From NCBI RefSeq assembly GCF_000421765.1, contig NZ_ATXQ01000002.1, positions 310,001 to 374,000 on the forward strand: a DNA stretch of 64,000 bases. The letters run 5' to 3'. A model generated the notes under the pieces. It was given only the letters and a program-made list of their open reading frames with translations. It was not told where the DNA came from and searched no databases. The position numbers and the translations under genes were made by a program. Source of the stretch: Denitrificimonas caeni DSM 24390. Lineage in GTDB: Bacteria > Pseudomonadota > Gammaproteobacteria > Pseudomonadales > Pseudomonadaceae. This document shows, piece by piece, positions 1,459-23,400 of the stretch (positions within the stretch are counted from its first letter, which is position 1; each line of letters begins with the position of its first letter).

Positions 1459-1495
1459 TCAGCTAGCGACAAAGAGCAGATCGCAAACAACGCCG

Positions 1496-1882: not shown

Positions 1883-1996
1883 ATGATCAACGAGTGCTTC
1901 GGGATAAGTGTGACAAGCGTAGCCATGGATGGCGCAGCGCCGGAGTTGAACCCCGGATGGGTTCATCGACGGAAAAACACTTATCCCGAAGTACGA
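1883..1996 (+). repeat. 114-bp palindromic element, copy 2
   Basis: Matches copy 1 at 111 of 114 positions, offset by 387 bases. Its terminal inverted repeats CTTCGGGATAAGTGT and ACACTTATCCCGAAG are perfect, so this copy is closer to an intact palindrome than copy 1. CAAACAAC precedes it at a short distance, as it does copy 1. Confidence 0.85.
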
Positions 1997-2028
1997 CACT
2001 CACTTGATAAACAAGCAAGACCGCCATT

Positions 2029-2045
2029 GCGGGCGAGCCGCCCGC
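2029..2045. repeat. REP-like hairpin
   Basis: GCGGGC-GAGCC-GCCCGC is a perfect 6-bp stem followed by GCTCCCA. The arrangement resembles the Pseudomonas REP consensus (GCGGGCAAGCCCGCTCCCAC). It lies about 90 bases beyond the arcC stop and could stabilise the 3' end of the arc transcript. Confidence 0.5.
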
Positions 2046-2133
2046 GCTCCCAAACAAACGCCTGCAAACAATATTAAACAGCAGCCGCTAGGTATTGCAG
2101 ACGAAGCGCCCGCGTTCCAAGATTGCGTTTAGC

Positions 2134-3048: not shown

Positions 3049-3050
3049 AA

Positions 3051-4052
3051 TTAACGTCCTAAAGTTGCGACCAACACCGCCTTAATGGTGTGCATACGAT
3101 TCTCAGCTTGATCAAACACAATCGACGCTGGCCCTTCAAACACCTCCTCCGTAACCTCCATGGCATCAATGCCATAGGTTTGCTGAATGTCCTTACCGAT
3201 CGTGGTCTCAGTGTTATGGAATGCTGGCAGACAGTGCATAAACTTCACCCGAGGATTACCCACTTTCGCCATCAGTTCAGCATTGACTTGGTAAGGCATC
3301 AGCAGCTCAATACGCTCAGCCCATTTTTCCTGCGGCTCACCCATCGACAGCCAAACATCGGTATAGACAAAATCCACACCCTGCACCGCTGAATCAATGT
3401 CTTCAGTAATCGTAATCCGCGCACCGGTTTGCTCAGCAATCGCACGCGCATCGGCTTGGATAGACGCAGCCGGCCAGCAGTTTTTTGGCGCACAGAGACG
3501 CACATCCATCCCCATTTGCGCACCACCAATCAGCAAGCTATCGCCCATATTGTTCGCCGCATCGCCAATAAATACATAAGCGACTTCATGCAAAGGCTTA
3601 TCACTGTGCTCTTGCATGGTGAGAAAATCTGCAAGGATTTGCGTTGGGTGAAACTCATCCGTCAAACCGTTATACACCGGCACGCCAGCATACTCAGCCA
3701 GTTCATTGACAATCTCTTGACCAAAACCACGGTACTCAATGGCATCATAAACACGACCTAAAACACGCGCCGTATCTTTGACCGACTCTTTATGACCAAT
3801 GTGATTGCCGGTCGGGCCTAAATAGGTGACACGTGCACCTTGATCAAAGGCCGCCACTTCAAAACTAATACGCGTGCGTGTTGAGTCTTTTTCAAAAATC
3901 AGGGCAATATTTTTACCCTGCAGGCACGGCTGCTCAGTGCCTGCATACTTCGCTGCTTTCAAGTCTGCCGATAATTTCAGTAAAAAATCGATTTCTTGCG
4001 GTGTGTAATCACGCAAGGTCAATAAGTTACGGTTTTTAAGATTAAAAGCCAT
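3051..4052 (-). CDS. arcB: Catabolic ornithine carbamoyltransferase ArcB
   Basis: Converts citrulline plus phosphate to ornithine and carbamoyl phosphate in arginine fermentation. The 333 residues include the carbamoyl-phosphate loop KDSTRTR near residue 56, the FHPTQ segment and the C-terminal MHCLPAFH. Its place between arcA and arcC assigns it to the catabolic rather than the biosynthetic enzyme. It is separated from arcA by 172 bases that hold a palindromic element, unusually wide for this operon. Confidence 0.96.
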
Positions 4053-4113
4053 CCTCTGCTCCTTAATTAGCAGCTGGGTAAATAAATTACATTTAATACA
4101 TTAAAGTTAAGTA

Positions 4114-4221
4114 AGCACTGAATCATGTTAGCGAGGCCGTCAGGGCTAGGCGCAACGACCAAGGGGAGTAACAGCGAAAAGCTGACCCGAAGGGCGAGCG
4201 CTAGCGAGTTAAATCAGCGCT
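4114..4221. repeat. Palindromic repeat-like element between arcA and arcB
   Basis: About 108 bases with imperfect inverted ends (AGCACTGAATCA against AGCGCTGATTTA on the other strand). The interior is rich in AGCG/CGCT, including CGCTAGCG at about 4198-4205. Length and style recall the elements at 1.5-2.0 kb, but the sequence differs. It ends three bases from the arcA stop codon. It may shape the mRNA between arcA and arcB. Only one copy is seen in this window. Confidence 0.4.
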
Positions 4222-4224
4222 CCT

Positions 4225-5454
4225 TTAAATCGGATCACGCACCGTTGGACAACTCATACAACGCCCACCACCGCGTCCACGTCCAAGCTCAGCACCCGGA
4301 ATCGCCAACACTTCAATGCCTGCCGCAGCCAATGCCGCGTTAGTGTCATCGTTGCGATCATACCCCACTACCACGCCTGGGCTCAGGGCTAAGACGTTAT
4401 TACCATCATTCCACTGTTCACGTTCGCGTTCAGCCGGATGATCACCACCTGTTGGCACCACCTCTAATGAGGCATAACCTAAGACTTCAGCCACCACATC
4501 AAACAGATGGCGTGGATCATGACGGAAGACATGGGACTTACCGGTCTCATCAGGGCGCAGATCATAACACTGCATGGCATCGGCTGCCTCAGTAAAGGCG
4601 GTAACGATATTGCCCCCACAGAAAGTAAACACCGTATCAAGGTGCATGGCAGCGCGTGATTTAGGCATTTGACAGGCCACCACACGGTCAACCGTACCTT
4701 TGGCAAACAGCGCGCGTGCTAACTGGCCCACCGCTTGCGGCGAACTGCGCTCACCCATACCAACCAGCACAGTACGATGACCCACCGGCATAATATCGCC
4801 GCCCTCTAAGGTTGCCAGACCAAAGTTTTGCAGTGGATCACCCCATAACACCTCCACTTTACCGGCAAACTTGGGGTGAAACTTATACACGCCCGCGGTC
4901 AACAAGGTTTCTGGCTTACGTGCATTCCAATACATTGGATTAAGCGTCACCCCACCATAGATCCACGCACTGTTATCACGGGTGAATAAGAAATTCGGCA
5001 AAGGCGGCAATACAAAACCATAACGGCCCAGATGATTACCAAACAAGCTGACGGGATCGAACGGCAAATCGCCAACTTCAAGACCACCAATCAAATACTC
5101 TGCCAACTGCTCACCCGGTAATTCATCCATCCAAGCGCGCAGATCAGAGACCATGCCCACACCAATTTCATTCCAGGTAATACGCTGATCGAGAATCCAC
5201 TTGCGCCCTTCAGGAATCGCCAAGGTTTGCGCTAACAAATCGTGAATATCCAGCACTTCAATACCACGCGCTTGCATCACACTGACAAAGACATCGTGAT
5301 CTTTTTGCGCTTGCTTGACCCAAAACACATCATCAAACAACAAAGAATCACAGTTTGACGGGGTTAAACGCCGGTGTGCCAAGCCAGGTCGACACACAAT
5401 CACTTGACGCAAGGTGCCAGTTTCCGAGTGCACACCCAAAGCTAAATCAGTCAT
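4225..5454 (-). CDS. arcA: Arginine deiminase ArcA
   Basis: Hydrolyses arginine to citrulline and ammonia, the first enzymatic step of the pathway. At 409 residues it is near the pseudomonad length. It shows the N-terminal [12 protein letters not shown], the [10 protein letters not shown] segment, HLDTVFTF with the catalytic His/Asp region, and the C-terminal GGRCMSCP carrying the nucleophilic cysteine (residue 399). The residue before that cysteine is Arg; from memory P. aeruginosa has His there, while Arg is common in other ADIs. It follows the carrier gene by 34 bases, so the operon order is carrier-arcA-arcB-arcC. Confidence 0.96.
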
Positions 5455-5488
5455 TACTTACTCCTTAGCAACCAACAAAGCCGGCTCA

Positions 5489-6943
5489 TTACAACAAAGC
5501 ACCAAAGCTCAGCACGGCAGTAATAAATAGGGTCAAAATCAATAATAGCGGCCAGACAAACACCAACCATCGGTCATAGGACACCCGACCGATGGCCAAA
5601 CCTCCCAGAACCACGGCAAAGGTTGGGTTAATTAAGTTCACTAAACCGTTAGCAGACTGGAACGCGGTCACCACCAGTGCACGATCAACATGGGCGAAGT
5701 CCGCTAAAGGCGCCAAAATCGGCATCGACAGAACGGCGAGACCAGAAGAAGACGGCACAAAGAAGCTCATTCCCACTTCAATCCAAAACATCAGGTTGAT
5801 AAACGCCAACTCTGGTAATCCACCTAAGGTGGTTTCTGCACTGTTTAAAATTGTGTCAGCAATCATGCCCTGTTCCATGATCACCACAATACCGCGAGCT
5901 AAACCGACCACTAAGGCCACACCAAGTAAATCGCGCGCACCATCAACAAAGCTTTCGGTCAGTTTTTTCTCACCTAAACGACCAATAAAACCGATCAAAA
6001 TGGCTGACCCCATAAACAAGCCACCCATTTGTGCCATCCACCAATCTTGTGAGGAAACACCCCAAATCATCACAGCAAAGGTGAGCGCAAAAATAACCAA
6101 GGCGATACTTTGCATCCCGGTCAAGACGGATTTCTCTTCGCTCGCATCGTGTTTTTGTAAAAAGTATGCGCGATGTGCATCCCACTGTTTAGCCACCACC
6201 GAGCGCGAAGGATCTTCCTTTACCCGCTTGGCGTAACGCATCACATAAACCGCACAAATAATCAGACCGCCAATCAGCAAAACCAGACGCAAACCCATAC
6301 CATCGGTAAACGGGATACTCGCCGCATTCGCTGCAATCACTGTGGCAAACGGGTTAATAGTGGAACCCAACACACCAATCCCCGCTCCGACCATCACAAT
6401 CGCCACACCGGTCACCGCGTCATAACCTGCGGAAATAATTACTGGAATCAAAATGGCATAAAAGGCGAGCGTTTCTTCGGCCATACCGTAGGTGGTGCCA
6501 CCAAAAGCAAACAACGTCATTAGGATCGGGATCATCCACAGTTCGCGGCCTTCCAAGCGCCGCATGGCACTGCGAATCCCTGTATCAATCGCTCCGGTGG
6601 CATTCATCACACCTAAAAAACCACCGAGAAAGAGCACAAATAACGCCACATCAATCGCATTCGCGACATAGCTATCAGGATTATAAAAGCCTGCCGTGGG
6701 CGCCAGCATGACATCGACAAAACCTTGTGGTTTCGCTTCAACCACCTGATAGGTTCCAGGAACCGCGATCTCCCGACCCACTTCATCGCTCATTACTCGA
6801 TCGTACTTACCCGCTGGAATGATCCAGGTTAAGGCCGCTACGAAAATGATCAGTAAAAAGAGAATGGTGTAAGCCGTGGGGAATCGCGAACTTAGCGTTT
6901 TCTCTATTTCTTGCGCTTGCGGTTGTTTAGTTGGATCGGTCAT
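5489..6943 (-). CDS. YfcC-family carrier in the arginine deiminase operon
   Basis: An inner-membrane transporter of 484 residues with about 12 hydrophobic segments. It belongs to the YfcC/C4-dicarboxylate anaerobic carrier family, not to the APC-type ArcD usual in Pseudomonas. Visible signatures are IIPAGKYDR near residue 45, GMAEETLAFY near residue 160, and near the C-terminus FFVPSSSGLAVLSMP and SANGLVNLINPTFAV. As the first gene of the operon it most likely performs arginine/ornithine exchange; that role is inferred from position. GCAGGAG lies just upstream of the ATG, and an ANR/FNR box lies 57 bases before it. Confidence 0.88.
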   Translation of the reverse strand: MTDPTKQPQAQEIEKTLSSRFPTAYTILFLLIIFVAALTWIIPAGKYDRVMSDEVGREIAVPGTYQVVEAKPQGFVDVMLAPTAGFYNPDSYVANAIDVALFVLFLGGFLGVMNATGAIDTGIRSAMRRLEGRELWMIPILMTLFAFGGTTYGMAEETLAFYAILIPVIISAGYDAVTGVAIVMVGAGIGVLGSTINPFATVIAANAASIPFTDGMGLRLVLLIGGLIICAVYVMRYAKRVKEDPSRSVVAKQWDAHRAYFLQKHDASEEKSVLTGMQSIALVIFALTFAVMIWGVSSQDWWMAQMGGLFMGSAILIGFIGRLGEKKLTESFVDGARDLLGVALVVGLARGIVVIMEQGMIADTILNSAETTLGGLPELAFINLMFWIEVGMSFFVPSSSGLAVLSMPILAPLADFAHVDRALVVTAFQSANGLVNLINPTFAVVLGGLAIGRVSYDRWLVFVWPLLLILTLFITAVLSFGALL

Positions 6944-6972
6944 GTCATGTGCTCCTGCTAAGACGTAACACC

Positions 6973-6991
6973 AGCCTAGACCTCCTAGGCT
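6973..6991. promoter_or_regulatory. Inverted repeat in the arc leader
   Basis: AGCCTAG-ACCTC-CTAGGCT is a perfect 7-bp inverted repeat between the ANR/FNR box and the start of the carrier gene. It would fall near the expected promoter -10 or transcription start. It may be an operator or an early mRNA hairpin. Confidence 0.35.
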
Positions 6992-6999
6992 AACAAACG

Positions 7000-7013
7000 T
7001 TGATATAGATCAA
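7000..7013 (-). promoter_or_regulatory. ANR/FNR box of the arc operon
   Basis: TTGATATAGATCAA is a perfect match to the FNR/ANR consensus TTGAT-N4-ATCAA. Its centre lies about 63 bases upstream of the carrier start. A site at -41.5 would put the transcript start near 6965 and give oxygen-limited activation, as known for pseudomonad arc operons. Confidence 0.88.
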
Positions 7014-7131
7014 TTTCTAGCAAAAGCTTTTGCGAGTCTGCGCGTAAGGACGAACGATGCGCGCGACGATTTGTCGCCGTGAAGATATGGCATACACAAT
7101 TCAAGAAAGCGGAAAATCTTTCAACACAAAC

Positions 7132-7150
7132 AATATTGATTCTCATTAAC
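7132..7150 (+). promoter_or_regulatory. Fur box upstream of the ftr operon
   Basis: AATATTGATTCTCATTAAC agrees with the 19-base Fur consensus at 14 positions by hand alignment, including the TTGAT and TCATTA cores. It lies 81 bases upstream of the P19-like gene, where iron-dependent repression would be expected. Confidence 0.65.
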
Positions 7151-7181
7151 AGCAGGTTTAGGCTTTTCATCGATCTCTCTG

Positions 7182-7201
7182 GACTGCAGCGTAATGCAGT
7201 C
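7182..7201. promoter_or_regulatory. Inverted repeat in the ftrA leader
   Basis: GACTGCA-GCGTAA-TGCAGTC is a perfect 7-bp inverted repeat 30 bases before the ftrA start. It could be an operator or a 5' mRNA hairpin. AAAGGA precedes the ATG. Confidence 0.4.
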
Positions 7202-7230
7202 GTCGCTTATTTTCAAAAAGGACTGATTTA

Positions 7231-7785
7231 ATGTCGAAATTTAGCCATCTCGCTCTCGCCTGCTCCATTGCCTTATGTACCAGCCAAGCCTTCGCTAAAG
7301 AGTATCCGGTTGGTCAGCCGATCTTAAAAAACGGTATGGAAATCGCCGGCGTTTATTTGCAGCCTGTCACTATGGACAACGGCAGCGGGCATTCTCACCA
7401 TCTGCCTGCGGTCGATGCTGATATCCACTTAGAAGCGGATATTCATGCCACAGAAAACAATCCCAATGGTTTTGCTGAAGGCGACTGGATACCGTATTTA
7501 AGCATCACCTATCAGCTGCAAAAGCTCGATGGTAAAAGCGCAGTACAAGAAGGCAGTTTTATGCCAATGGTCGCCAATGACGGCACCCATTACGGCGAAA
7601 ACGTAAAGATGCAAGGACCGGGTAAATACCGCGTCACCTACACCATCTCGCCGCCATCAAAAAACCCACAGGTTGATTTTGGTCGCCACATTGATAAAGA
7701 AACCGGCGTCGCTGCCTGGTGGGAAACCTTTGAGGTGTCGTGGGACTTTGTTTACGCCGGTATCGGTAAAAAGGGTGGCTATTAA
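7231..7785 (+). CDS. ftrA: P19/FtrA-like periplasmic iron-binding protein
   Basis: A 184-residue exported protein of the P19/Tp34 family, the periplasmic component that captures ferrous iron, often with copper. A signal peptide covers about residues 1-22, cut after AFA. The metal-binding family pattern is seen in GHSHHLPAVDADIHLEADIH (residues 54-73), a later GTHYGENV, and the C-terminal WETF segment. It leads a four-gene set matching FtrABCD of Bordetella: P19, cupredoxin, Ftr1 permease, polyferredoxin. The upstream Fur box and downstream hairpin suggest iron-repressed expression with extra ftrA transcript. Confidence 0.9.
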   Translation: MSKFSHLALACSIALCTSQAFAKEYPVGQPILKNGMEIAGVYLQPVTMDNGSGHSHHLPAVDADIHLEADIHATENNPNGFAEGDWIPYLSITYQLQKLDGKSAVQEGSFMPMVANDGTHYGENVKMQGPGKYRVTYTISPPSKNPQVDFGRHIDKETGVAAWWETFEVSWDFVYAGIGKKGGY

Positions 7786-7796
7786 TCCATGCGTTC

Positions 7797-7834
7797 TACT
7801 TCAGCAAAGCCTTGAGTATCGGTTTGCTGAAGTA
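7797..7834 (+). terminator. Partial terminator between ftrA and ftrB
   Basis: TACTTCAGCAAA at 7797-7808 pairs perfectly with TTTGCTGAAGTA at 7823-7834, a 12-bp stem followed by CTTTTAAGG. It lies between two genes of one operon, so it probably attenuates readthrough or protects the ftrA mRNA rather than ending the operon. Confidence 0.65.
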
Positions 7835-7851
7835 CTTTTAAGGAACTACTG

Positions 7852-8178
7852 ATGCGCTATTTGAGCTTATTTTTCGCCTGCGCACTGCTGAGCTGCAACG
7901 TCAGTGCTGCAGACGCCTTTACCGTGCAATTGGAAATGAAAGACGGCGAGTTGATTCCTGGCACCCTGACAGTGCCAGCCAACACCCGCATCCGTATTGA
8001 AGTGCACAACAGCGGCAGCAGCCCTGCTGAGTTTGAAAGCACACAGATGCGCAAAGAAAAAGTCTTGGCTCCGGGTGCAAAATCAGTGGTCGTCATCGCT
8101 CGTTTACGTCCCGGCCAATACAGTTTTTTTGATGATTTCCATTTAGATCATCCCGCAGGCTTAGTCATCGCAGAGTAA
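7852..8178 (+). CDS. ftrB: FtrB-like cupredoxin-domain periplasmic protein
   Basis: A 108-residue protein with a signal peptide (about residues 1-19, cut after VSA) followed by a small cupredoxin-like beta domain. Visible parts are PGTLTVPANTRIRIEVHNSG, FES with MRKEK, LAPGAKS and the final FHLDHPAGLVI. In the Ftr system the cupredoxin is thought to oxidise ferrous iron delivered by the P19 protein before permeation. It starts 66 bases after ftrA with the hairpin between them, and ends three bases before ftrC. Confidence 0.85.
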   Translation: MRYLSLFFACALLSCNVSAADAFTVQLEMKDGELIPGTLTVPANTRIRIEVHNSGSSPAEFESTQMRKEKVLAPGAKSVVVIARLRPGQYSFFDDFHLDHPAGLVIAE

Positions 8179-10490: not shown

Positions 10491-11468
10491 TTAACGTCGA
10501 CTAAAGCGCTTGCGGTATTCTGTAGGGGTCACGCCAGTTCTGTTGCGAAATAAACGCCGAAACGAACTGGCATCTTCATAGCCCACTTGCGACATCACCA
10601 GATCCACACTGAGCTCGGTTTCTTCCAACAGTTTCTGTGCGGCTTCAATGCGCAGAGACTGCAGATACGCATTGGGTGGGCTGTCTAAGGCGGTATTAAA
10701 ACGCCTGATCAGCGTGCGTTTCGAGACATTAAAACGTTGCGCCAACTCATCCAAAGTAAAACGTTGCGCATAATGCGCTTGCAGCCACTCTTGCACCTGC
10801 TTGACCAATTCGTCTTTGTGCGGCTTGGCTAAACGCATCAGGGAATACGACAACTGGCTGTCACGGCGGTAATCAATCACAAAGGCTTTAGCGGTTTGCA
10901 GGGCCACGTCAAAACCGACAAAACGCTCAATCATATGTAGGCCTAAGTCAAACCACGCCAAACCACCGCCTGCACAATAAATATGCTCATCGCGGGTAAT
11001 CAGTTGCTCTGCAGTTAACTGCACCGCTAGATAACGCTCGGCAAACTGCTGTTTAAAGCCCCAATGAGTGGTCGCACAGCGGCCATTGAGAATGCCTGCT
11101 TCAGCCAAGAGAAAATTGCCGGTGCAATTGCCGGCAATGGTCCAGCTCTGCTGATTGGCATACTGCAATAAAGCTAACAGCTCTGAATTCTGCGCCAGCA
11201 CCTCATCGATTGGCCCACCGATGGTCGGCACAATGATCGCATCCACCTGCACGATGTCGGCGTAACTCAGCTGCGCAGCGATTTGAATGCCATTGATGCA
11301 GCGAATCGGCTGACCATCAGGGCTGGCAATGCGCACATTAAAGTGCCGCCCCACTTCCTCGCCCTGCACTCGATTCCAAGTCACCCCAGCCAAAGCGAAC
11401 AAATCCATCACCCCGGTAATGGCCGAAGCCAAAGCCGAATCAAAACCAAGCACTATGATATTCAGCAT
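10491..11468 (-). CDS. GlxA-family AraC-type transcriptional regulator
   Basis: A 325-residue regulator with an N-terminal DJ-1/PfpI-like class I amidotransferase fold (residues 1-190; IVPTIGGP, GNCTGNFLLAEAGIL) and a C-terminal AraC helix-turn-helix pair (about 228-325; FTLDELAQRFNVSKRTLIRRFN and EDASSFRRLFRNRTGVTPTEYRKRF segments). The amidotransferase-like part usually serves as a ligand-sensing domain. It lies divergent to the acyl-CoA dehydrogenase gene, with about 107 bases between the starts, and may control it. The ligand is unknown. Confidence 0.88.
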   Translation of the reverse strand: MLNIIVLGFDSALASAITGVMDLFALAGVTWNRVQGEEVGRHFNVRIASPDGQPIRCINGIQIAAQLSYADIVQVDAIIVPTIGGPIDEVLAQNSELLALLQYANQQSWTIAGNCTGNFLLAEAGILNGRCATTHWGFKQQFAERYLAVQLTAEQLITRDEHIYCAGGGLAWFDLGLHMIERFVGFDVALQTAKAFVIDYRRDSQLSYSLMRLAKPHKDELVKQVQEWLQAHYAQRFTLDELAQRFNVSKRTLIRRFNTALDSPPNAYLQSLRIEAAQKLLEETELSVDLVMSQVGYEDASSFRRLFRNRTGVTPTEYRKRFSRR

Positions 11469-13451: not shown

Positions 13452-14240
13452 ATGAGCAGCGAAAACAAAGTGTTGGTTGAGGCCAGTGAGCATATTCTGA
13501 CGATCACCTTCAACCGCCCAGAAAAACTCAATGCACTGGATCCTGAAAGTTTCCATCTGTTGGCGCAGGCACTGTATCGCCTGCAGCATGACAGCGAACT
13601 GCGCGTCGGTGTTATCCAAGCCAACGGCAAGCACTTTACCGCCGGTTTAGAGCTGGATAAGTGGGCACCGATCTTTGCCACAGGCCAAGCCCCCGACATG
13701 GCGCACGATGAAATCGACCCCTATGGCATTGCTGGCGAAACTTTGACCAAACCCTTAATCATTGCTGTACAAGGTTTGTGCTACACCTCAGGTCTTGAGT
13801 TGCTACTCAATACCGAGATCCGTCTGGCCACCGCTGCAACACGTTTCGCGCAACTGGAAGTGCAGCGCGGTATTTACCCTTGTGGCGGCGGCACGGTACG
13901 TTTACCTGCAGAGATTGGCTGGGCGCGGGCGCAGCGTTACTTGCTGACCGGTGATGAGTTTAACGGCCAACAAGCCTATGACTGGGGCATGCTCACGGAA
14001 CTGTGCGAGCCAGAACATCTCCACCAGCGCGCCCGCGAGCTGGCGTGTAAAGTCGCGGCAGCGGCACCACTGGGCGTACAGGCCGCACTGACATCCGCAA
14101 AGCTTGCGCGTTTGCATGGCGATAGCGCCGCATTATCCGAGGTGTTTGATGATTTGGCCAAGGTCATGGCCAGCGAGGATGCCGCCGAAGGTGTGCGCTC
14201 ATTTTTGGAACGCCGTGCAGCGGTGTTTACAGGGCGCTAA
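13452..14240 (+). CDS. Crotonase / enoyl-CoA hydratase family protein
   Basis: A 262-residue crotonase-fold protein, likely hydrating or isomerising an enoyl-CoA in fatty acid breakdown. The N-terminal FNRPEKLNALD and oxyanion-hole segment KHFTAGLEL are present. Glu116 (in SGLEL) and Glu136 (in FAQLEV) fall where the two catalytic glutamates of enoyl-CoA hydratase lie. AAGGAG precedes the start. It lies 85 bases after the acyl-CoA dehydrogenase and is probably in the same operon. The exact substrate cannot be read from the sequence. Confidence 0.88.
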   Translation: MSSENKVLVEASEHILTITFNRPEKLNALDPESFHLLAQALYRLQHDSELRVGVIQANGKHFTAGLELDKWAPIFATGQAPDMAHDEIDPYGIAGETLTKPLIIAVQGLCYTSGLELLLNTEIRLATAATRFAQLEVQRGIYPCGGGTVRLPAEIGWARAQRYLLTGDEFNGQQAYDWGMLTELCEPEHLHQRARELACKVAAAAPLGVQAALTSAKLARLHGDSAALSEVFDDLAKVMASEDAAEGVRSFLERRAAVFTGR

Positions 14241-14279
14241 TAACTCGTGCGCTTTACTGGCGCTATATCTCAGATCAAA

Positions 14280-14312
14280 AAACGCGCAGCCAACCGAGCT
14301 GACTGCGCGTTT
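14280..14312 (+). terminator. Terminator after the crotonase gene
   Basis: AAACGCGCAG (14280-14289) pairs with CTGCGCGTTT (14303-14312), a 10-bp stem ending in a short T run. It lies 40 bases after the crotonase stop and before the convergent lipoprotein gene. Confidence 0.65.
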
Positions 14313-14352
14313 CAATGTAAACACGAAAACTATGACTAATAGTAAACGTCAA

Positions 14353-14715
14353 TCAGCGAATAATTTTCCACTCACCTGATTTATTTTTCTTTAAACGCAG
14401 ATCCTGCATATTGGTTTGTGTCTGCCCCATCATTGTCGCGGTGACTTCAACAGTGCACAGATACGCATCGTTATCAGAAGACTTACAACCTTGTGGCGAT
14501 ATATTTTCGATTTTAGGCATCATGCTCGACACCATCTCTTCCATACCAGAATCTTTAACACCTGCTATGTCTGAAACTTGTGCTAGTTCACTTGCAACCT
14601 GATCTTCAATTACCTTACGCACTTCAGCATCTGATGGGCCTCCACCACAAGCAGCCAGTGCTGCAGCCATGCCAAAAACCAATCCTAGCTTTGTAAAACC
14701 TTTTACTGCTTTCAT
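14353..14715 (-). CDS. Small hypothetical lipoprotein
   Basis: A 120-residue predicted lipoprotein with no function I recognise. A signal sequence ends in the lipobox LAAC followed by GGGPSDAE. The mature part is charged, with an AEVRKVIEDQVASELAQ helix near its start, and ends DLRLKKNKSGEWKIIR. The terminal part resembles small DUF4878- or NTF2-like lipoproteins, but this is weak. ATG at 14715 was chosen because AAGGAG sits 5 bases upstream; an upstream GTG at 14733 would swallow that RBS. It is a single gene between two terminators. Confidence 0.75.
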   Translation of the reverse strand: MKAVKGFTKLGLVFGMAAALAACGGGPSDAEVRKVIEDQVASELAQVSDIAGVKDSGMEEMVSSMMPKIENISPQGCKSSDNDAYLCTVEVTATMMGQTQTNMQDLRLKKNKSGEWKIIR

Positions 14716-14753
14716 AGTGACTCCTTGTTTCACGCATCATCCATCATTATAGA

Positions 14754-14785
14754 AAAAGCCACCTTGCTTAAACAAAGTGGCTTTC
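14754..14785 (-). terminator. Terminator of the five-gene envelope operon
   Basis: On the minus strand AAAGCCAC...GTGGCTTT forms an 8-bp stem, extended inside after one mismatch, followed by TTTTTCT. It lies just after the last gene of the operon (stop at 14792). Confidence 0.75.
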
Positions 14786-14791
14786 AATCAA

Positions 14792-15988
14792 TTAGAAGCC
14801 CAGTTGTACACCGCCACCGTCGTTCAGTTGGTAATTGGCTTCGCGGCCTTCAGCGTAACCTGCTGATCCACCTTGTGAACGGCACACACTGCCTTTCACC
14901 ACTGAACCTTCAGTAATTTTCGCATAAGACAGTTTGTTAGTGGTACGCACCACTTCAATCACACCCGTTTTGCTTTCCACCCGACCTGCTTTTTCTTTGG
15001 TGTAGGCATCATGCACTACAGCACCTTCGCTGAAACACTCGTAGATATCACCAGTGACCAACTCTTGAGAGAACACCAACTCACTGCCATCCATATCGGC
15101 CACGCGCAGTGGATAGATCGCTTCCAGCACTTGATTGGTGATTTTCCCGACCACACCATCAAGTGCGCTATGTGTTGACTTGAGACTGCCATCTTTAAGA
15201 TCAGCATCCACACTCAAGGTGTTGGCGAATTTAACTTGGCGCGTAGCAAACAGGATCACTTGATAGTCAATTGATAACTGCGCTTTGATTTTCTCACGTC
15301 CAGTCAGGTTACTTGTTTTTGAACTCGCTTCAGCTGCGGTCACGGTATAAACAAACATATAGTCTGTACCTAAACCGTTGCCCAGCTTATAAATCTCATC
15401 GCTCATGGCATTGCCGCTTTGGATAAAAGCTTTCTCCATGGCGTAGAGATTACCGTGTTGACGGTCCAACACATTAAACTTACGGCTCTGCACAAATTTA
15501 TTAATAAATTTCTGCTTGAGCGTTTCGTTAAGCTCGTAATAGCCACCACTGGCATTGCCCAGAACAGTAATGCTCCTTCTACTGTCTGCGCTAAGACCAG
15601 GAGCTTTATAGCTTTTACTAGTTTTGGTATTGCGTATCGTAACGTTAGCAATGTAACGACCATCGGTGTCTTGGTGCACGCTATTGACCTCGTAAGAGTC
15701 CGCGCGACCATTGGTCACCTTAGAGATTTCATCACTATAGGCGTCCTGTAAGACAGTGCCATCTTTAGAGCTGGTTTTCATGTGCAAGCTAGTCGACTTC
15801 ATCGATTTGATTTTCACACCTTGCAGCTTAGAAATCGCCTCGATAACCGCATTATTAACCGCCTCTTCACGGGTGATACCACTGCCTTCACCGCTGCTGC
15901 TTTGGGTAGTGGTTTTGGTAATCACCTGCGCTTGAGCTGTAAACGACAAGCTAAGTGTACAGACCAGACATAATATGAGTCTTAACAT
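14792..15988 (-). CDS. FlgT/CsgG-like secreted protein of the envelope operon
   Basis: A 398-residue exported protein with a signal peptide (residues 1-20, cut after AQA). Three parts can be told apart: an N-terminal region (about 25-110) with GITREEAVNNAVIEAISKL, as in FlgT-N/LPP20 domains; a middle region (about 125-285) resembling CsgG or FlgT-M, with KFVQSRKFNVLDR and LGTDYMFVYTVT; and a C-terminal region (about 290-375) like the FlgT C-terminal barrel. There is no lipobox, so it is likely periplasmic. It is the last gene of a tight five-gene operon. Function unknown; the domain reading is by eye. Confidence 0.7.
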   Translation of the reverse strand: MLRLILCLVCTLSLSFTAQAQVITKTTTQSSSGEGSGITREEAVNNAVIEAISKLQGVKIKSMKSTSLHMKTSSKDGTVLQDAYSDEISKVTNGRADSYEVNSVHQDTDGRYIANVTIRNTKTSKSYKAPGLSADSRRSITVLGNASGGYYELNETLKQKFINKFVQSRKFNVLDRQHGNLYAMEKAFIQSGNAMSDEIYKLGNGLGTDYMFVYTVTAAEASSKTSNLTGREKIKAQLSIDYQVILFATRQVKFANTLSVDADLKDGSLKSTHSALDGVVGKITNQVLEAIYPLRVADMDGSELVFSQELVTGDIYECFSEGAVVHDAYTKEKAGRVESKTGVIEVVRTTNKLSYAKITEGSVVKGSVCRSQGGSAGYAEGREANYQLNDGGGVQLGF

Positions 15989-15998
15989 AAGTGAGTCC

Positions 15999-17390
15999 TT
16001 AGAAGTCGTCCATGTCGTTTACCACACGGCTTTTGCGCGTCACACTCTGACTCGATTTAGGAGTGCTCTGAGCCTTAGATCCTTGCGAAGACAACGGAGC
16101 AACCATTTGATTGGTATTTTCTACGTTAGCGTGTGAATACATACGCACCACACCGACATAAACAACACCGTTAGCGTCTTTCGCGTCCCAACGTTTCACA
16201 GTACGCAAACCACGCAAGTTCATGTCTGAACGTGAAGTGATTTCCTTGTTGGTAATATCAATAATATCTTTCGCTGTTTTCTCACTCAGCGAGGTATCGT
16301 TGCCATTCACAGTTTCGGTAATGCTACGTTCAATCTGGGCGCTACTTTCCGAGCTACGCTTGAACTGAATCGCGGTATTAATAAAAGCAGATACAGCAGC
16401 GTCAGCACGTGAAGTTGCTTGATCAGTAGCGACTTCTTTCTTACGGTTATTCATGTACGGATCGCTATCTGGCTGATAGCTCCACTGACCGTAGCTGATA
16501 ATCACTGGCGCGCCACTTTCATTGTAAATCAGGCGAATACCATGCTCACTGATATAACCATCGTTTTTCTCTGGCAAGACATCTTTAACTTGACGACCCT
16601 TACCAGTAATCAACGACGCACGCTTCTGACGCATATCGCTTGCAACCTGTCGGGTTTTTCCAGACATCACAGCAATAACGCCGACCTCGTAATGATCAGC
16701 ACTGACTTGCGTCATGCTCGTTTGTACTGGAACTAAACCTTGCATGCTACCAAACGCACTTTCACTGATTTTTTGCACTAAAGCATCAGCAAACAATACT
16801 TTTTTGCGTTCTTCAGTTAAACCAGCAGCTTCAACACCCATTTCTTGCAATGCGCTATCTAGTTTTGCACCTGTCAGTTTTACAGCCTTATCTAATAACT
16901 GCGCAAAGCGGCCTTCAGCAGGCAACTTTTCAAACTCACGAGCATTAGTGGAATCATCACTAAACAACGTTTGCTTAAGTTCGCTTGACTGACGACCAAA
17001 TGCATTGCGCACAAACTCAGCCTGCATATTGAGCATCGCATTATCAAAGGCTAAATTTAATGCTTTAGCAAAAGACGGATCAGTGGCAGCCAAAGCCACG
17101 GTTGCACGGCCGCTAAAGAAAACTTTGCCGTTATTATCTTCGCCGTAATTAATGTCATGCTGATCAGCAAACTCATCAAAAAAATCATTCAGCGACTTCG
17201 GAGTAATATCTTTAGTGCTGGAATCAGAGAGCGCGTTTTGCTCTTCAATATCCGACTGCACAACGGCAGTACTGCTGACCTGTGGTTGAGCTTGCGGCTC
17301 AGCAGCTTGTCCAACTGACACATCTGACTCTTCTGCAGTTACATGGGCTGCCATAAGGCATGCTAAAACAACACCTGTTATTTTTTTCAT
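15999..17390 (-). CDS. Exported hypothetical protein (DUF6844-like)
   Basis: A 463-residue protein with a cleavable signal peptide (cut after VTA) and no lipobox, so probably periplasmic. I recall DUF6844 proteins in this kind of cluster, but cannot confirm the family. It begins with an acidic, Gln-rich linker, contains a SLNDFFDEFADQHDINYG segment near residue 65, a long middle helix-rich part and a Ser-rich basic tail ending in NDMDDF. ATG at 17390 or 17396 is possible. It lies 10 bases before the FlgT/CsgG-like gene. Confidence 0.7.
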   Translation of the reverse strand: MKKITGVVLACLMAAHVTAEESDVSVGQAAEPQAQPQVSSTAVVQSDIEEQNALSDSSTKDITPKSLNDFFDEFADQHDINYGEDNNGKVFFSGRATVALAATDPSFAKALNLAFDNAMLNMQAEFVRNAFGRQSSELKQTLFSDDSTNAREFEKLPAEGRFAQLLDKAVKLTGAKLDSALQEMGVEAAGLTEERKKVLFADALVQKISESAFGSMQGLVPVQTSMTQVSADHYEVGVIAVMSGKTRQVASDMRQKRASLITGKGRQVKDVLPEKNDGYISEHGIRLIYNESGAPVIISYGQWSYQPDSDPYMNNRKKEVATDQATSRADAAVSAFINTAIQFKRSSESSAQIERSITETVNGNDTSLSEKTAKDIIDITNKEITSRSDMNLRGLRTVKRWDAKDANGVVYVGVVRMYSHANVENTNQMVAPLSSQGSKAQSTPKSSQSVTRKSRVVNDMDDF

Positions 17391-17408
17391 TGTCATATCC
17401 CTACGTTA

Positions 17409-18032
17409 TTACCAGCTAACTGATTTAGATGAGCCTGTCTTATCGATGGTCTGTTCATCTTCCCAATACACCAAACCACTGTTGAGGTCAGTCATACGCA
17501 GTAGAAAGAAATACTCAACCTGTACTTTACCGTTAGCGAGCTTAACGTTGTCTTGGCGAATTTTCCCGGCTAGCGAGAAGTCAGGCGCAACCAAAGTGCC
17601 TGACTTGGCGATGGTCTTCTGATTGAACTCAGAATTATCGCGCAGCTCACGCACATCTTCGCTCATGCTGTCTAATGCACCGCCTGCAGCAACGGCAGAG
17701 GTCAACACAAACTTGCCAGAACGGCGAAGCGCTGAGGTAATTTTGGCTGTTAGTTTCTCGGTATCAATGCGTTGCGGTGTGTCGTTTAATACGCGTCCAA
17801 TGGCCACAACTTTACGTTGGCCTGGGGCGATACCGACAAAGGCCGGATCACTGAGCATGCTTTGGATCATGGTTTCAGCGGCATTATCAAAATCTTCACG
17901 GTCTAAACCAAGCGATAAAGCATTGCCTTTTTTAACCTGCGCAGCCGAACCATCCGTGTAACTCATCTGCGAACAGCCGGTTAGCACTAACGTGGCGGCC
18001 AGTACTGCTGTTGCTAATTTAAATTTTCTCAC
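17409..18032 (-). CDS. LpoB-like penicillin-binding-protein activator lipoprotein
   Basis: A 207-residue lipoprotein with the lipobox LTGC near residue 20. The globular part resembles LpoB, the outer-membrane lipoprotein that activates PBP1b in enterobacteria: RKVVAIGRVLNDTPQRIDTEKL near residue 73, then ITSALRRSGKFVLTSA, DFSLAGKI and YFFLLRMTDLNSGLVYWEDE. These also fit the wider CsgG/LpoB superfamily. Pseudomonads normally use LpoP for PBP1b, so a role in peptidoglycan synthesis is not certain. A YcfL-like gene precedes it by 15 bases, as ycfL precedes lpoB in E. coli. Confidence 0.8.
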   Translation of the reverse strand: MRKFKLATAVLAATLVLTGCSQMSYTDGSAAQVKKGNALSLGLDREDFDNAAETMIQSMLSDPAFVGIAPGQRKVVAIGRVLNDTPQRIDTEKLTAKITSALRRSGKFVLTSAVAAGGALDSMSEDVRELRDNSEFNQKTIAKSGTLVAPDFSLAGKIRQDNVKLANGKVQVEYFFLLRMTDLNSGLVYWEDEQTIDKTGSSKSVSW

Positions 18033-18047
18033 CGTATCTTTCCTTGT

Positions 18048-18410
18048 TTATTTGATGTGGACTTTAATGTCTTTTGCTCTTTTATCGCTGGCAAGCTTAT
18101 GCATGACATAGCTTTCGTTACGCGTCAGGCTTAATGCTCGGTAGCGCTCATCGATAGGATTGCGCAAGCCATAGCCTTGATCGTCCAGCCATTCAACTTT
18201 GTAATTGATCGTACGCGACTTGGAGCTTTGGAACGTAATCTGCACTTCCAATATTCCGTTGGCATTGGTTCTGCTTTGAATATCAGTGACATATTGCGGG
18301 TAACGAGAGTCTGCAGTGACAGCCTGATCCTGAATATGAATAAGACTTGGTGAACAGCCATTGAGCAACAACATGACTGCGCAGCAAACGAATATCTTTT
18401 TTAAATGCAT
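18048..18410 (-). CDS. YcfL-like small lipoprotein
   Basis: A 120-residue predicted lipoprotein (lipobox LNGC near residue 19) of the YcfL (DUF1425) type. The region NGILEVQITFQSSKSRTINYKVEWLDDQG (about residues 55-83) resembles the family's immunoglobulin-like beta core. The function of YcfL is unknown. It sits 4 bases after the COG3014-like gene and just before the LpoB-like gene, the ycfL-lpoB pairing known in E. coli. Confidence 0.78.
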   Translation of the reverse strand: MHLKKIFVCCAVMLLLNGCSPSLIHIQDQAVTADSRYPQYVTDIQSRTNANGILEVQITFQSSKSRTINYKVEWLDDQGYGLRNPIDERYRALSLTRNESYVMHKLASDKRAKDIKVHIK

Positions 18411-18414
18411 GGGT

Positions 18415-19764
18415 TTACCTTTCGATTACGCTGACTTGAGTGGGCAGATAAGGTGCAAAAGAACGTACAACAATCAGCACGTTTTTATTTTTATCAACTT
18501 TCTGGCTAAATATTTCCTCACCATTGGCGGCAAGAATTTCAACCTTACCTTTATTCTCATGCATGCTGACTGAAGCTGTTTTTGGCAATCCGCGCCAGCT
18601 TCTTACATCGGCTTGAGTCGCAACTGTCGTAGCGATACTACTGGCAAGAGCAAGGAAACCACCGGTTGTGTCATTTTTAGCAACAGCCACGTTTAACGCT
18701 GTTTTCACAACGGTAGAAGCAACTGATTTAGTGATTTCCGCAGGCAAATTAATTTTGAACTCAGTTGCAACAACGCTATCAAAATCAACAACTTGACTGG
18801 TTGCTACATTGTTCACTTTAAGTTCACCAAACGATGCTTCGCGTTTTTTCAACGTTGGCATAGCAAAGGTGCTAGTAATCACTTTACGATCGATGATCAG
18901 CGGCAAGGTAAACTTAAACTCTTCTTTAATAGCACCAAAACCATCTTCATAAGATACAAAAATATAGTTCTTGGCTTTCTTTGTGGTCACTGCATTGGCA
19001 CGCTTATCAAATAACTGCAGCTGTTTTTGAATCTGTTTGTCATCTGGATTAATGATGGCTACTTCTTTAAATAAATCAGCGGCTTTACCGTAATCTTTCT
19101 CCATGTAGAAGAAAACGGAAGCCAAGTATGTCGCATAGGGGTTGACAAAATCTTTGGTGGTATCAAATTCTTTAAAGAAACCATCGTATTTAGACATGAT
19201 CTGCGATGAACTGTTGTCTAGATTTTCTTTGTCAGTGAATTTTTTTGATTCATCAAGTTTTGCTCTGTTCTGCTCAACTTGCTTAGCAAAGTACTCTTTG
19301 GCTTTATCTTGTCTTAGCAGTGCACGATTAAATTCGACACGAGCATTGTCATAATCGCCCAAACTCATGTAGTTCAGGCCTTTGTAGCTATTAACCATAA
19401 TTCGCTCATACAAAGAGCCTTTATAGTCAAACATATTGTCATTAACCAAAGTAGCCATGACTGTTTTGGCGCCTTTATTGGCTATATTCTGCAAGTCTAC
19501 ATCGTTCTTGTAGGACTCTTCGGCCGCATCAAAAAACATGTTGCTCTTTTCATAGCCTTGGCAGCTGCGCGCTACCAATCCAGCATTAATACCAGTGTAA
19601 ATGACATCACTGTTGCGTTTGATTTTTGCTTCATGCTCAGCAAAAAAATTATCTGAACAAAACTTGTTCGCCAAAGCATTCTCAAAATCTTTACTTTTTT
19701 GCTCATGACCTGCACAACCCATCAATGCAATGGTCAATGACACTGTAAAAGCAATCCTTTTCAT
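18415..19764 (-). CDS. COG3014-like TPR-containing lipoprotein
   Basis: A 449-residue predicted lipoprotein (lipobox LMGC near residue 15) that I place in the COG3014 group. TPR-like helices are visible at YKGLNYMSLGDYDNARVEF and VFFYMEKDYGKAADLFKEV; the C-terminal half is beta-rich. ATG at 19764 is chosen because AAGGAAAA lies just upstream and gives a proper signal peptide; a longer frame from 19815 does not. It is the first gene of the operon, whose five genes are separated by 4 to 18 bases. Confidence 0.75.
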   Translation of the reverse strand: MKRIAFTVSLTIALMGCAGHEQKSKDFENALANKFCSDNFFAEHEAKIKRNSDVIYTGINAGLVARSCQGYEKSNMFFDAAEESYKNDVDLQNIANKGAKTVMATLVNDNMFDYKGSLYERIMVNSYKGLNYMSLGDYDNARVEFNRALLRQDKAKEYFAKQVEQNRAKLDESKKFTDKENLDNSSSQIMSKYDGFFKEFDTTKDFVNPYATYLASVFFYMEKDYGKAADLFKEVAIINPDDKQIQKQLQLFDKRANAVTTKKAKNYIFVSYEDGFGAIKEEFKFTLPLIIDRKVITSTFAMPTLKKREASFGELKVNNVATSQVVDFDSVVATEFKINLPAEITKSVASTVVKTALNVAVAKNDTTGGFLALASSIATTVATQADVRSWRGLPKTASVSMHENKGKVEILAANGEEIFSQKVDKNKNVLIVVRSFAPYLPTQVSVIER

Positions 19765-19795
19765 GGTTTTTCCTTTAGATAGAGCAACACTGTGC

Positions 19796-19817
19796 TCATG
19801 CTCAAAAATGAGCATGA
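19796..19817. promoter_or_regulatory. Inverted repeat upstream of the envelope operon
   Basis: TCATGCTCA-AAAA-TGAGCATGA is a perfect 9-bp inverted repeat 32 bases before the start of the COG3014-like gene. It could be an operator or a leader hairpin. The remaining 560 bases up to the RND terminator, 19818-20364, hold no gene or other structure that I can support. Confidence 0.4.
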
Positions 19818-20364
19818 ACTCATGGGTATTAAGAAGGGATAAATGGGCAAGACAGTCCTTATCTTTCTTGAATTTTATTAAAAATCCCGTCTACAAAGAA
19901 TATCCCTATAGACGCTTAATGAATATTTTAATGGAGCAAGGGAACTCATATTGAAAAAACGAGTCTTGCGTCACGGTTTAGCGGCTCGATTATAGGCAAA
20001 GATGTTTCAATGTCAATTTACGAAACGGTATAAAGCGGCCATTAGCCATCAAAGAAACTTCTTGGTTGCACAAGTCTCTTTAGCACCGCCTACAAATACT
20101 GCAGGCTTTTTATACTATCCAAAAAAAACAGGTAGTAACTCTGTGAGGCAGGTTACGACTGGTGATTTCGCTTTACCCTGATTTTAAAGCCGCTATTTTA
20201 ACCAGTAAGTCACTCATCCACGCTCTGTGAAGACTCAGATTTAGCAGTTTCATGCAGAGTAAAAGCGAGAAAACTCTATCAACTAAAGTCTTAATAGTAG
20301 GAGGCTAAAACCTTTACTCAGGCAAAGAGAATGGTGCTTATGCAATTCATCATTAAAAAACTCA

Positions 20365-20402
20365 CAGAATAAAAAACGCCAAGAAAAGCGTTTTTTATTC
20401 TG
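20365..20402 (-). terminator. Terminator of the RND pump operon
   Basis: CAGAATAAAAAACGC pairs perfectly with GCGTTTTTTATTCTG around an 8-base loop. The 15-bp stem has A/T-rich arms, so it can act on both strands. It lies 27 bases after the RND permease stop. Confidence 0.85.
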
Positions 20403-20428
20403 TATATACAACCGATATAGTTTATTCG

Positions 20429-23400
20429 TCAGTCAACAGGTTCTGCCGGTAAGCGGAAAACCACCACATACAACAATGGCACCACCACCAAAGTTAAGAT
20501 CGTAGCAAAGGTCAAACCAAACATAATCACCACGGCCATGCTCTTAAAGAATGGATCAAACAGCAATGGAGCCACACCGAGGATCGTAGTAAAAGCGCCA
20601 AGAAAGACGGGCCGTGCACGGCTGACCGAGGCGTCAATCACTGCGGTAAAGCCAGGCTTACCTTCACTAATTTCCACATCGGCCTGGTCGACCAAGACAA
20701 TCGAGTTTTTCACCAACATCCCGACTAGACTCAAGCAACCTAAGATCGCCATAAACTCAAACGGCACTTGGAAAATCACTAAGCCCACAGTCACACCAAT
20801 AATTGCTAATGGTGCAGTTAACCAAATGACCAAAGGTTGGCGCAGCGCATTAAACATAAGCACTACGGCCAAAATCATCGCGGTAAAACCATAAGGAGCA
20901 GATATCGCTAAACCTTCATTGGATTCATTCGAGTCTTTATACTCACCGTGCCATTCCAAGCTGTAGCCCGGAGGCAACTCGATCGCTTCAACTTTAGGTT
21001 TAAGTCGATTAAATAAAGGATCGGCCTGCTGCCCCGGGAGCGGATCAGTCTGCGCCATAATGGTTGGAAAGCGGTCCACTCGACGCAAAATAGCATCTGT
21101 CCACTCAACCTTTACATCACTCACCAACTGACTGATCGGTAAGTGTTTTTCTGCAGTAGGACTATATACTTGCACGTTTTCTACATCTTGTGCTTGTGAG
21201 CGTTCGCTATAGGGTGCGCGCGCGATAATCGGTATCAGCTTATCTTTTTCGCGATAAACCCCCACACGCTCACCGGTAAAGGCGCGGTTCAATGCTTGAC
21301 TGATCTGGGTAATATCCACACCAGCTCGGCGCGCGGCCACTTCATCAACAACGGGCCGCAGCACTGGCGTTTTATCACGCCAGTCATCCTGAACAGCAAT
21401 CGCTCCGGGATCAGCCGCCATAATAGTTTTTGCTTGCTCAGCCAACTGGCGCAGCACCACTGGATCTGGACCTTTAAAAGCCACTTCAATTTTCTTACCA
21501 CCACCACGGCCAAGCATAAACTTCCAGACCTTAATTTCTGCTAACGGATGACGCTCAGAGAGCTCTGTCTGTAATTCATCCACGAGTTCAGCAATACCAG
21601 TCGCATCTTCCACATCAATTAAAAGCTGACCATAGCTGCTATTAGGGTCTTCAGGGCTATAAGTCAGCATAAAACGCAAACCACCTTGCCCAACAAATCG
21701 AGTGATATGCGTCACACCCTCTTTATCCTGCACATGCTCAGCCATGCGCTCCAACTCTTGCGCCGTTTCGCGGATGTCAGAGCCTTGTGATAAATACATG
21801 TCCACCACAAATTGAGGGCGCGCTGAGTCCGGCATAAAACCAGGCTTAACCCAATTAAATCCAAAAATCGCACTCACTAATAAACCGAGCATAATCGCAC
21901 CGGTCAATAAGCGCTTGCGTAGCGCCACATTCAATAGGCGGCGGTAGCGGTATAAAATACCTGTTTGTTTTTCTGTTTCGCCTTCAGCTTTGACTTTAAC
22001 TTTCAGCCAAGCGACGCACAGCAGCGGCGTTAAGGTCACGGCAAATAACCAACTGAGCATCATCGAATAGAGAATCACCCAGAACAACGAACCAGCATAT
22101 TCGCCCATATCCGTTGGCGACAAACCGATGGCACTAAAGGCCAGAATGCCAACGACGGTACCGCCCAGCAGCGGAAACTGCGTGCCTTTGACCACAGCAA
22201 TTGCAGCACTTTCAGCCGCCTCGCCTTTTTGCATACGCACCAGAATGCCGTCGGTCACAACTATGGCGTTATCCACCAACATACCGAGGGCAATAATCAA
22301 CGCACCCAGCGAGACCCGCTGCATGGCAATGTCATCCATATACATCGCAATCAGAGTGCCCGCCACTGTCAGTAATAAAACGCTGCCGACAATCACGCCA
22401 CTGCGCCAACCCATAAACAGGATTAGCACCAGCACCACAATAGCCACGGCGGCAGCCAAATTGGCGACAAAACCATCAACCGCTTCACGTACTGAATCAG
22501 ATTGGTAGGAAACAATATGCAGATCAATGCCGACTGGGCGCTGCGAGTCCAACTGCTTTAAACGGGCACGCACTGCATCACCGACATCTACCACATTACC
22601 ACCAGCAACTTGCGAGATGCCTAAGCCAATCGCAGGTTGACCGTCATAGTTCATTAAGGCGCGCGGCGGCTCAATGGTTGAACGGGTAATTTTGGCGATA
22701 TCTTTTAAGAAAATCACCTGTTCGCCGCTGGGCGAACTCAAAGCAATATTTCCTAACGCTTGCACCGAATCAACTTGTCCTCGCGGACTAAAATGCACGC
22801 GCTGTGGACCAATCAATAAGTTACCTGAGTCGGTGATCACATTTTGTTGGCGCAAGGATTGATAGATATCATCTTGCGCAATCCCCAACTGCGCAGCTTT
22901 TGCCGACGCAATTTCAATAAATATAGCTTCTTCAGGCTCACCTAAGGTTGCAACGCGGGCCACGCCAGGCACTTGCAATAGCTCGCGTTCAAGGGTGTCG
23001 AGGTAATCTTTTATCTCTTTTAAAGAATAGCCTTCACCCGTTACCGCAAAAAACAGTGCATACACATCGCCAAAATCATCATTAACGATCGAGGCTTGTG
23101 CACCAGGAGGGAGTTTTCTCTGAGCATCTTCGACTTTGCGTCTGAGCTTATCCCACACCTGTTCAAGCTCTGCTTTGGTTGGCGAAAACTCCAGTTCAAT
23201 CTCAACTTTCACTAAAGAATTGCCCATCCTTGAAACTGAAGTGACCTCTTTAATTTCTTGCAGCTGCTGTACCGCTTCTTCAATCACCTCGGTCACTTCT
23301 TCAGCAACTTGCTCAGGTAGTGCCCCTGGATAAAGGGTGGTAATCGCCGCTTGACGAATCACAAACTCAGGATCTTCGAAACGGCCGAGTTTTTCATAGC

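Follow-up and report, generated by a model that had tools for sequence, protein, structure and literature searches.

A possible outer-membrane scaffold encoded by a five-gene lipoprotein operon, apparently acquired by horizontal transfer, in Denitrificimonas caeni

Introduction

What are five exported proteins, one of them a relative of LpoB, doing together in one operon of a pseudomonad, and where did that operon come from? Both questions are raised by a 64,000-nucleotide stretch of the genome of Denitrificimonas caeni DSM 24390 (contig NZ_ATXQ01000002.1, positions 310,001 to 374,000; hereafter the window), in which five minus-strand genes follow one another from 19764 down to 14792. They code for a tetratricopeptide repeat (TPR) lipoprotein, a YcfL-like lipoprotein, an LpoB-family lipoprotein, a DUF6844 protein and a FlgT-like protein. 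Our preferred answer, held tentatively and at somewhat less than an even chance, is that the operon was acquired horizontally and encodes an outer-membrane scaffold, whose docking and function we infer.

The core genes of this operon occur in eight phyla, including Campylobacter jejuni and, by published account, Helicobacter pylori; they are widespread and little studied. Loss of a single member affects both adherence and colonisation in C. jejuni, and both vesicles and shape in H. pylori; those parts of the literature available to us offer no mechanism. A literature search found no paper on COG3014 or DUF6844. Likewise, no description of the five-gene form, or of the C-termini of the LpoB, DUF6844 and FlgT-like proteins discussed below, was found in print in the open literature.

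A conserved operon of exported proteins

The initial annotation regarded the five genes as one operon ending in a single terminator, and the open reading frames, the gaps of 4–15 bp, a promoter that matches the consensus perfectly and, recognised by eye 3' of the last gene, a hairpin with T-run like that of a terminator agree with it (Table 1). The intergenic gaps measure 4, 15, 12 and 10 bp, so that the close packing it described stands and its exact range of 4–18 bases does not. Export of all five products, three of them as lipoproteins, was also correctly recognised: by eye, the TPR, YcfL-like and LpoB-family proteins have a lipobox whose cysteine (C17, C19 and C20) precedes A or S, and the DUF6844 and FlgT-like proteins have ordinary signal peptides. 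The open reading frame of the TPR gene is listed from 19815, and the ATG at 19764 was taken as its start. A role in anti-phage defence was considered and rejected, the five proteins having no PADLOC match.

Table 1. Positions of the operon genes, their signals and the inserted segment in the window
Feature	Position	Strand	Remarks
TPR lipoprotein (Cj0089/HP0018 type)	18415..19764	-	449 residues; lipid Cys17; outer-membrane sorting expected; TPR_2 2.8e-6 (Pfam)
YcfL-like (DUF1425) lipoprotein	18048..18410	-	120 residues; Cys19; DUF1425/YcfL 2.4e-9 (Pfam)
LpoB-family lipoprotein	17409..18032	-	207 residues; Cys20; short linker; C-terminal Trp (KSVSW); Pfam LpoB 2.2e-43
DUF6844 exported protein	15999..17396	-	465 residues; low-confidence tail ending MDDF; Pfam 2.9e-28
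FlgT-like exported protein	14792..15988	-	LPP20-like N domain (weak), CsgG-like middle, TsaP/FlgT-C-like end; tail GGGVQLGF
Sigma70-type promoter	19989..20016	-	TTGACA-16-TATAAT; 12/12 consensus matches
Hairpin and T-run in 225-base 5' leader	19888..19914	-	consensus scanner
Terminator-like hairpin and T-run 3' of last gene	about 14752..14784	-	by eye; consensus scanner did not list it
Segment missing from empty site of same-genus genomes	14234..20441		about 6.2 kb; boundaries from the G002 match

One scan with an alignment of LpoB confirmed 206 matches. Only the loci of the 80 best were fetched, and the sample therefore leans towards the window's subtype. These loci belong to Campylobacterota (35), Planctomycetota (17), Pseudomonadota (15), Chlorobiota (4), Thermodesulfobacteriota (3), Lentisphaerota (3), Verrucomicrobiota (1) and Myxococcota (1), one being without phylum assignment. 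Fetched with LpoB alone, 79 of the 80 open with a same-strand TPR gene 10–651 bp upstream of LpoB, and in the remaining one the TPR gene lies downstream. A YcfL gene stands between the two in 69 loci, with all eight phyla represented. This gene order is not due to chance.

The reverse approach used 40 loci fetched with the TPR protein, the best-scoring 40 out of a further 55 genomes in which that protein had a match. A same-strand neighbour of LpoB size lies within 1.5 kb in 34 of them; such a gene is found in the same cluster, in a different order, in L069 and L071, and L052, L058, L063 and L081 make up the rest. Co-occurrence in other genomes, which the initial annotation had in view, is supported. 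In L052, an apparent LpoB-DUF6844-FlgT fusion was dismissed, as its reading frame crosses runs of N.

The last two genes are less constant. Where at least 3.5 kb follow LpoB (65 loci), a FlgT-like gene was found in 41, a full DUF6844 gene in 12 and neither in 23. DUF6844 is rare in the window's class, with 6/274 genomes, its own included, at the Pfam threshold, which divergent copies such as the one in G162 do not reach; in G256 the DUF6844 and FlgT-like genes stand together, away from the TPR-YcfL-LpoB trio. The TPR protein is present in 44 genomes of the same class sample and PF13036, the LpoB family, in 82, many of these matches being partial. Among 20 inspected PF13036 loci a TPR gene was near in 13; six of the 20 had a TPR protein known beforehand, and of 12 from genomes without an earlier TPR match seven had one. 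The initial statement that pseudomonads usually lack LpoB is roughly right, a full or nearly full-length match being present in 19/99 genomes of the family, counting that of the window.

Two further arrangements were observed. Nine Campylobacter loci (L110–L118) keep the TPR, LpoB-like and FlgT-like genes with conserved tails, and neither YcfL nor DUF6844 was detected in them. Within the window's own family, L048 (6894–7670) and L050 (1240–1986) have a second CsgG/Lpo-like gene directly after TPR-YcfL-LpoB.

Conserved C-termini and a candidate hub

Three of the five proteins end in a conserved manner. The LpoB protein has a C-terminal tryptophan in 79 of the 80 named loci, and the exception, L104, is cut by a contig end, which leaves 79/79 complete proteins; the search patterns had left out this end of the protein. 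DUF6844 proteins end in F or W in all 12 complete named copies and in six of six further ones, the rest of the tail being little conserved. In 45 of 47 named copies the FlgT-like protein carries G[VIA]x[LM][GP][FW] within its last 12 residues. Both the DUF6844 and the FlgT-like tails were modelled at low confidence. Among operon relatives, no conservation of the TPR and YcfL C-termini was found.

Docking of the LpoB tryptophan into YcfL, the FlgT-like protein or DUF6844 was considered and rejected, since the residue persists where those genes were not found: it is kept in 11/11 loci without detected YcfL and in 23/23 loci with room for, but without detected, FlgT-like or DUF6844 genes. This leaves the TPR protein, the only one seen alongside LpoB in all 80 loci, as the remaining candidate partner within the operon. 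Its TPR region has six residues, N125, K128, R142, N146, R147 and R151, that are conserved in 78–80 of 81 proteins. Residues of this kind form carboxylate clamps in other TPR proteins, and the set presumably resembles the make-up of such a clamp.

The LpoB-family protein and PBP1b

By its scores the protein belongs to the LpoB family (TIGR02722, 195 bits against a curated cut-off of 110.55), and the initial annotation hinted at an activator of PBP1b. Regulation of cell-wall synthesis would cast this protein as the activator of a class A penicillin-binding protein, as in Escherichia coli, with the other four tuning the activation. Besides scores far above curated cut-offs, this explanation can draw on the adjacency of ycfL and lpoB in E. 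coli too, on the PBP1b with a UB2H domain in the window's genome and on the account in PMC11394524, which suggests such a role for HP1457.

Three observations count against it. LpoB is about 145 Å long, and its long linker lets an outer-membrane protein span the periplasm (PMC9593243). Measured from the lipid cysteine to the first conserved aspartate, the linker has 58 residues with 16 prolines in E. coli LpoB, 26 residues and no proline in the window's protein, and 22–29 residues in 81/81 operon proteins, none of which thus has the long form. Among 27 hand-picked operon genomes, UB2H exceeds its cut-off in ten, is partial and below it in eight and has no match in nine, so that 17 are without a match above the cut-off. 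Furthermore, the gene that adjoins PBP1b in the window's genome already matches LpoP (6w5q, 5.7e-50), a protein described in PMC7267771. The hint therefore fared badly: an activator of PBP1B is an unlikely identity for the window's LpoB, judged by these sequence features, and synthase regulation as an account of the whole operon is decidedly improbable. PBP1b, with LpoP directly after it, is found at 5978–9022 of L095 in the window's genome.

Folds of the FlgT-like and DUF6844 proteins

The FlgT-like protein reached no Pfam or NCBIfam cut-off. For its model (mean pLDDT 74), Foldseek placed FlgT first (3w1e, E 2.3e-17), together with the LPHT ring chain 8z5n_0; CsgG (E 1.3e-5), PelC and other lipoproteins followed further down. 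A VIA comparison with FlgT gave Z 14.1 over 205 residues (model 136–373) with a root-mean-square deviation of 11.6, and this large value means that the domains match and their arrangement differs. Profile searches linked the C-terminal domain to TsaP (1.7e-9) and the middle to CsgG (0.0012). The likeness of the N domain to LPP20 falls within the 407-column Foldseek alignment and outside the VIA alignment, and in Pfam, where LPP20 is the best row, it is weak (0.099). The CsgG/FlgT-like member named in the initial annotation is recovered here as the last protein of the operon.

A CsgG-like pore that exports surface proteins or adhesins, that is, a system for secretion or fibre assembly, would account for these CsgG-fold matches, and Cj0091 is needed for adherence according to PMC3100323. 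We regard it as distinctly unlikely: the best fold match is FlgT and not CsgG, the FlgT-like protein has no lipobox and hence not the lipid anchor of a CsgG pore, and Pfam finds no curli-type gene among the five, its scan having covered these and one neighbouring gene.

The architecture of FlgT also suggests an accessory of the flagellar motor, part of an H-ring or basal disk. FlgI is present in the window's genome, at about 43 kb from the operon, and the account in PMC11756786 has H. pylori HP1454 and HP1456 interacting with FlgP and FapH, their kinship to operon proteins being an assumption. However, a FlgI match is missing from nine of the 27 operon genomes, some of these nine being drafts, and five of the nine keep DUF6844 and FlgT-like genes. 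Flagella are thus apparently not required, and a flagellar accessory is highly improbable.

The DUF6844 protein (model pLDDT 68) is folded like FTT_1539c, the protein of structure 4QVR (profile E 2e-60; model Z 27.0). Besides 4QVR, LPP20 was the one row of interest in its structure search. The possibility that DUF6844 is a paralogue of the FlgT-like protein was rejected, a profile comparison having given no match.

An apparently acquired segment

The genus search covered 12 genomes, the window's own included. The TPR gene had no match in the 11 others, seven of which are at least 90% complete. The upstream RND gene is present in 10 of the 12; the downstream flank matched in six, in G001 only over a small lipoprotein stretch, so that the hydratase gene is present in five. 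An empty site, in which the hydratase and RND genes lie 133, 136, 422 and 790 bp apart, was found in G002, G007, G005 and G009, respectively. The GC content of the five operon genes is 39–48%, against 49–56% in three neighbouring genes. The inserted segment also holds a small lipoprotein gene (14353–14733), and similar DNA occurs elsewhere in the genome and in G001, G005 and G007. Two possible carriers were rejected: for a transposon-like insertion, no direct repeat joins the segment ends (the flanks were not searched for transposases), and for a phage, one scan of viral contigs gave no relative of the LpoB protein.

Among the best 80 of the 206 matches, the closest LpoB by identity is that of Thiopseudomonas sp. 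MB2.015 (91%, on a cut contig), followed by Campylobacter and Helicobacter proteins (up to 83%). A TPR+LpoB tree was built from 49 rows, hand-picked from 81 available and including several of unusual composition; it pairs the window with Thiopseudomonas (100/100) within a 23-row clade (100/100) that otherwise consists of 19 Campylobacter and two Helicobacter rows. A rapid tree of the TPR protein alone, with 90 rows, gave the same picture (99 and 100). Apart from one Thiopseudomonas, the operons most closely related to the window's are those of Campylobacter and Helicobacter, and the genes therefore moved between phyla. The position of the window inside the Campylobacterota clade is supported by 94/89 and 88/89 only, so that a direction from Campylobacterota to the pseudomonad is likely and not certain. 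From these sequences, the operon was apparently acquired from Campylobacter-like bacteria.

The last two genes point the same way. The FlgT-like protein is 51–53% identical to those of L098, L102 and L119, no other locus exceeding 45%; for DUF6844 the same three loci give 43–47% and the others at most 36%. The window's five genes were probably transferred together. In Helicobacter sp. 11-8110 (L100, 10627–12012), DUF6844 shares just 20% identity with the window's copy while the neighbouring genes are close, and the gene was therefore probably exchanged there.

A scaffold at the outer membrane

The five proteins may plausibly form one envelope complex. In the scaffold that we tentatively favour, the three lipoproteins would be located on the periplasmic side of the outer membrane, with the TPR lipoprotein as a hub receiving the LpoB-like protein by its C-terminal tryptophan, and the DUF6844 and FlgT-like proteins would probably dock on this hub by their own tails. 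The CsgG/FlgT-type domains could in turn build up a ring- or disk-like assembly, which would anchor the outer membrane to the wall and restrain peptidoglycan hydrolases. Its mode of action would be that of a non-flagellar counterpart of FlgT-type rings, unlike that of LpoB with PBP1B. Speaking for this scaffold are the synteny across eight phyla, the FlgT-like and 4QVR folds, the TsaP and CsgG profile matches, the short LpoB linker, the low counts of UB2H and the missing FlgI among operon genomes, the C-termini and the conserved TPR residues, as well as the published findings on HP0018 (mutant phenotype; AmiA and MltD in co-immunoprecipitation) and on Cj0091.

Control of peptidoglycan hydrolases could instead be the whole function, the TPR lipoprotein serving amidases and lytic transglycosylases as an adaptor in the manner of NlpI, with the other proteins in ancillary roles; we consider this unlikely. 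NlpI has TPRs. It is an outer-membrane lipoprotein that scaffolds hydrolases according to PMC7049810, and HP0018 co-immunoprecipitated with AmiA and MltD, its mutant being less helical, in the account of PMC11394524, whose authors themselves call for confirmation. An adaptor of this kind leaves the FlgT/CsgG folds and the conserved tails unexplained.

Several points weigh against the scaffold as well. The FlgT-like tail motif is missing from two of the 47 named copies and from four of six further ones, and in a wider gammaproteobacterial set of 35 LpoB-like proteins, among them the window's, the last residue varies (L 11, W 9, R 6, F 5, P 2, M 1 and Y 1). Seven of the 20 inspected LpoB-family loci have no TPR neighbour. 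The match of DUF6844 to LPP20 is weak (E 0.077; Z 5.2) and a lead only. That the FlgT-like protein is a paralogue of LpoB was rejected on a weak profile match (probability 10.5, E 0.003), although iterated profiles of the two merge. In C. jejuni, Cj0089 was found with the inner membrane, and adherence was reduced in the cj0091 mutant and not in the cj0089 mutant, according to Oakland et al. (PMC3100323); this location and the lack of an adherence phenotype ill suit a TPR hub at the outer membrane.

Were the scaffold real, the widely used LpoB annotation would mislead for much of the family, and 4QVR, a solved structure without assigned function, would gain a context. Its transfer into a pseudomonad shows the system to be a portable module. 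A broader proposal, which we think rather unlikely, is that most 'LpoB' proteins outside enterobacteria belong to a separate envelope scaffold, that the TPR lipoprotein reads a C-terminal code (...W in LpoB-like, ...DDF or EDW in DUF6844 and GGVxL[GP]F in FlgT-like proteins) through which these proteins dock with their free ends, and that the block moves between phyla. E. coli LpoB would then be the derived form, a protein that escaped the system by losing its TPR partner and its tail and by acquiring the linker.

Signals for expression

Promoter-like sites number five in the region against 11.0 expected by chance, and the promoter of Table 1 is the sole one with 12/12 matches; its end lies 225 bp from the first start codon. 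The hairpin in the leader is a possible attenuator, judged from its sequence, and a lead only, because terminator-like sites are at chance level (six against 6.3 expected). A known leader RNA element was rejected: Rfam at gathering scores gave one tRNA in the window, located elsewhere.

Comparison with known systems

The nearest studied relative is cj0089-cj0090-cj0091 of C. jejuni, which has the window's order of TPR, YcfL-like and LpoB-like genes. By the account in PMC3100323, cj0089-91 are co-transcribed and activated by CmeR, and Cj0091 is an outer-membrane protein needed for adherence and for early colonisation of chickens. We equate L099 and L101 with this operon by gene order and by the neighbours named in that account, not by accession. 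Their LpoB-like proteins are 80–81% identical to the window's; they differ in having no full DUF6844 or FlgT-like gene. L099 has a 98-residue DUF6844 remnant after LpoB (10736–11032), possibly the so-called cj0092, the full gene being present in Campylobacter L098 and L102. L111 and L118, also labelled C. jejuni (LpoB-like proteins 73 and 69% identical), lack YcfL and have a FlgT-like gene.

For H. pylori, likeness to the window's TPR and LpoB proteins follows the account in PMC11394524, not a direct comparison. There, HP0018 is the homologue of Cj0089, and HP1457 is the orthologue of Cj0091 and is called an LpoB homologue; hp0018 stands alone, and the hp1457 homologue is syntenic with hp0018 in some helicobacters. 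Deletion of HP0018 led to chains of vesicles and altered, less helical shape.

In E. coli, ycfL and lpoB represent both families and are adjacent, as in the window; in contrast, their cluster has no TPR gene, and LpoB has its proline-rich 58-residue linker and no C-terminal tryptophan. Vibrio FlgT, of the H/LPHT ring, shows the same succession of folds, with a weak match in the N domain, as the FlgT-like protein, which differs in occurring in genomes with and without FlgI, in another operon and, in most copies, with an extra conserved C-terminal tail. FTT_1539c shares the fold of DUF6844 at 21–25% identity; its entry calls it hypothetical, and FTT1539 is among the immunodominant antigens listed in PMC4207810. 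The operon of D. caeni is a variant of a known lipoprotein operon.

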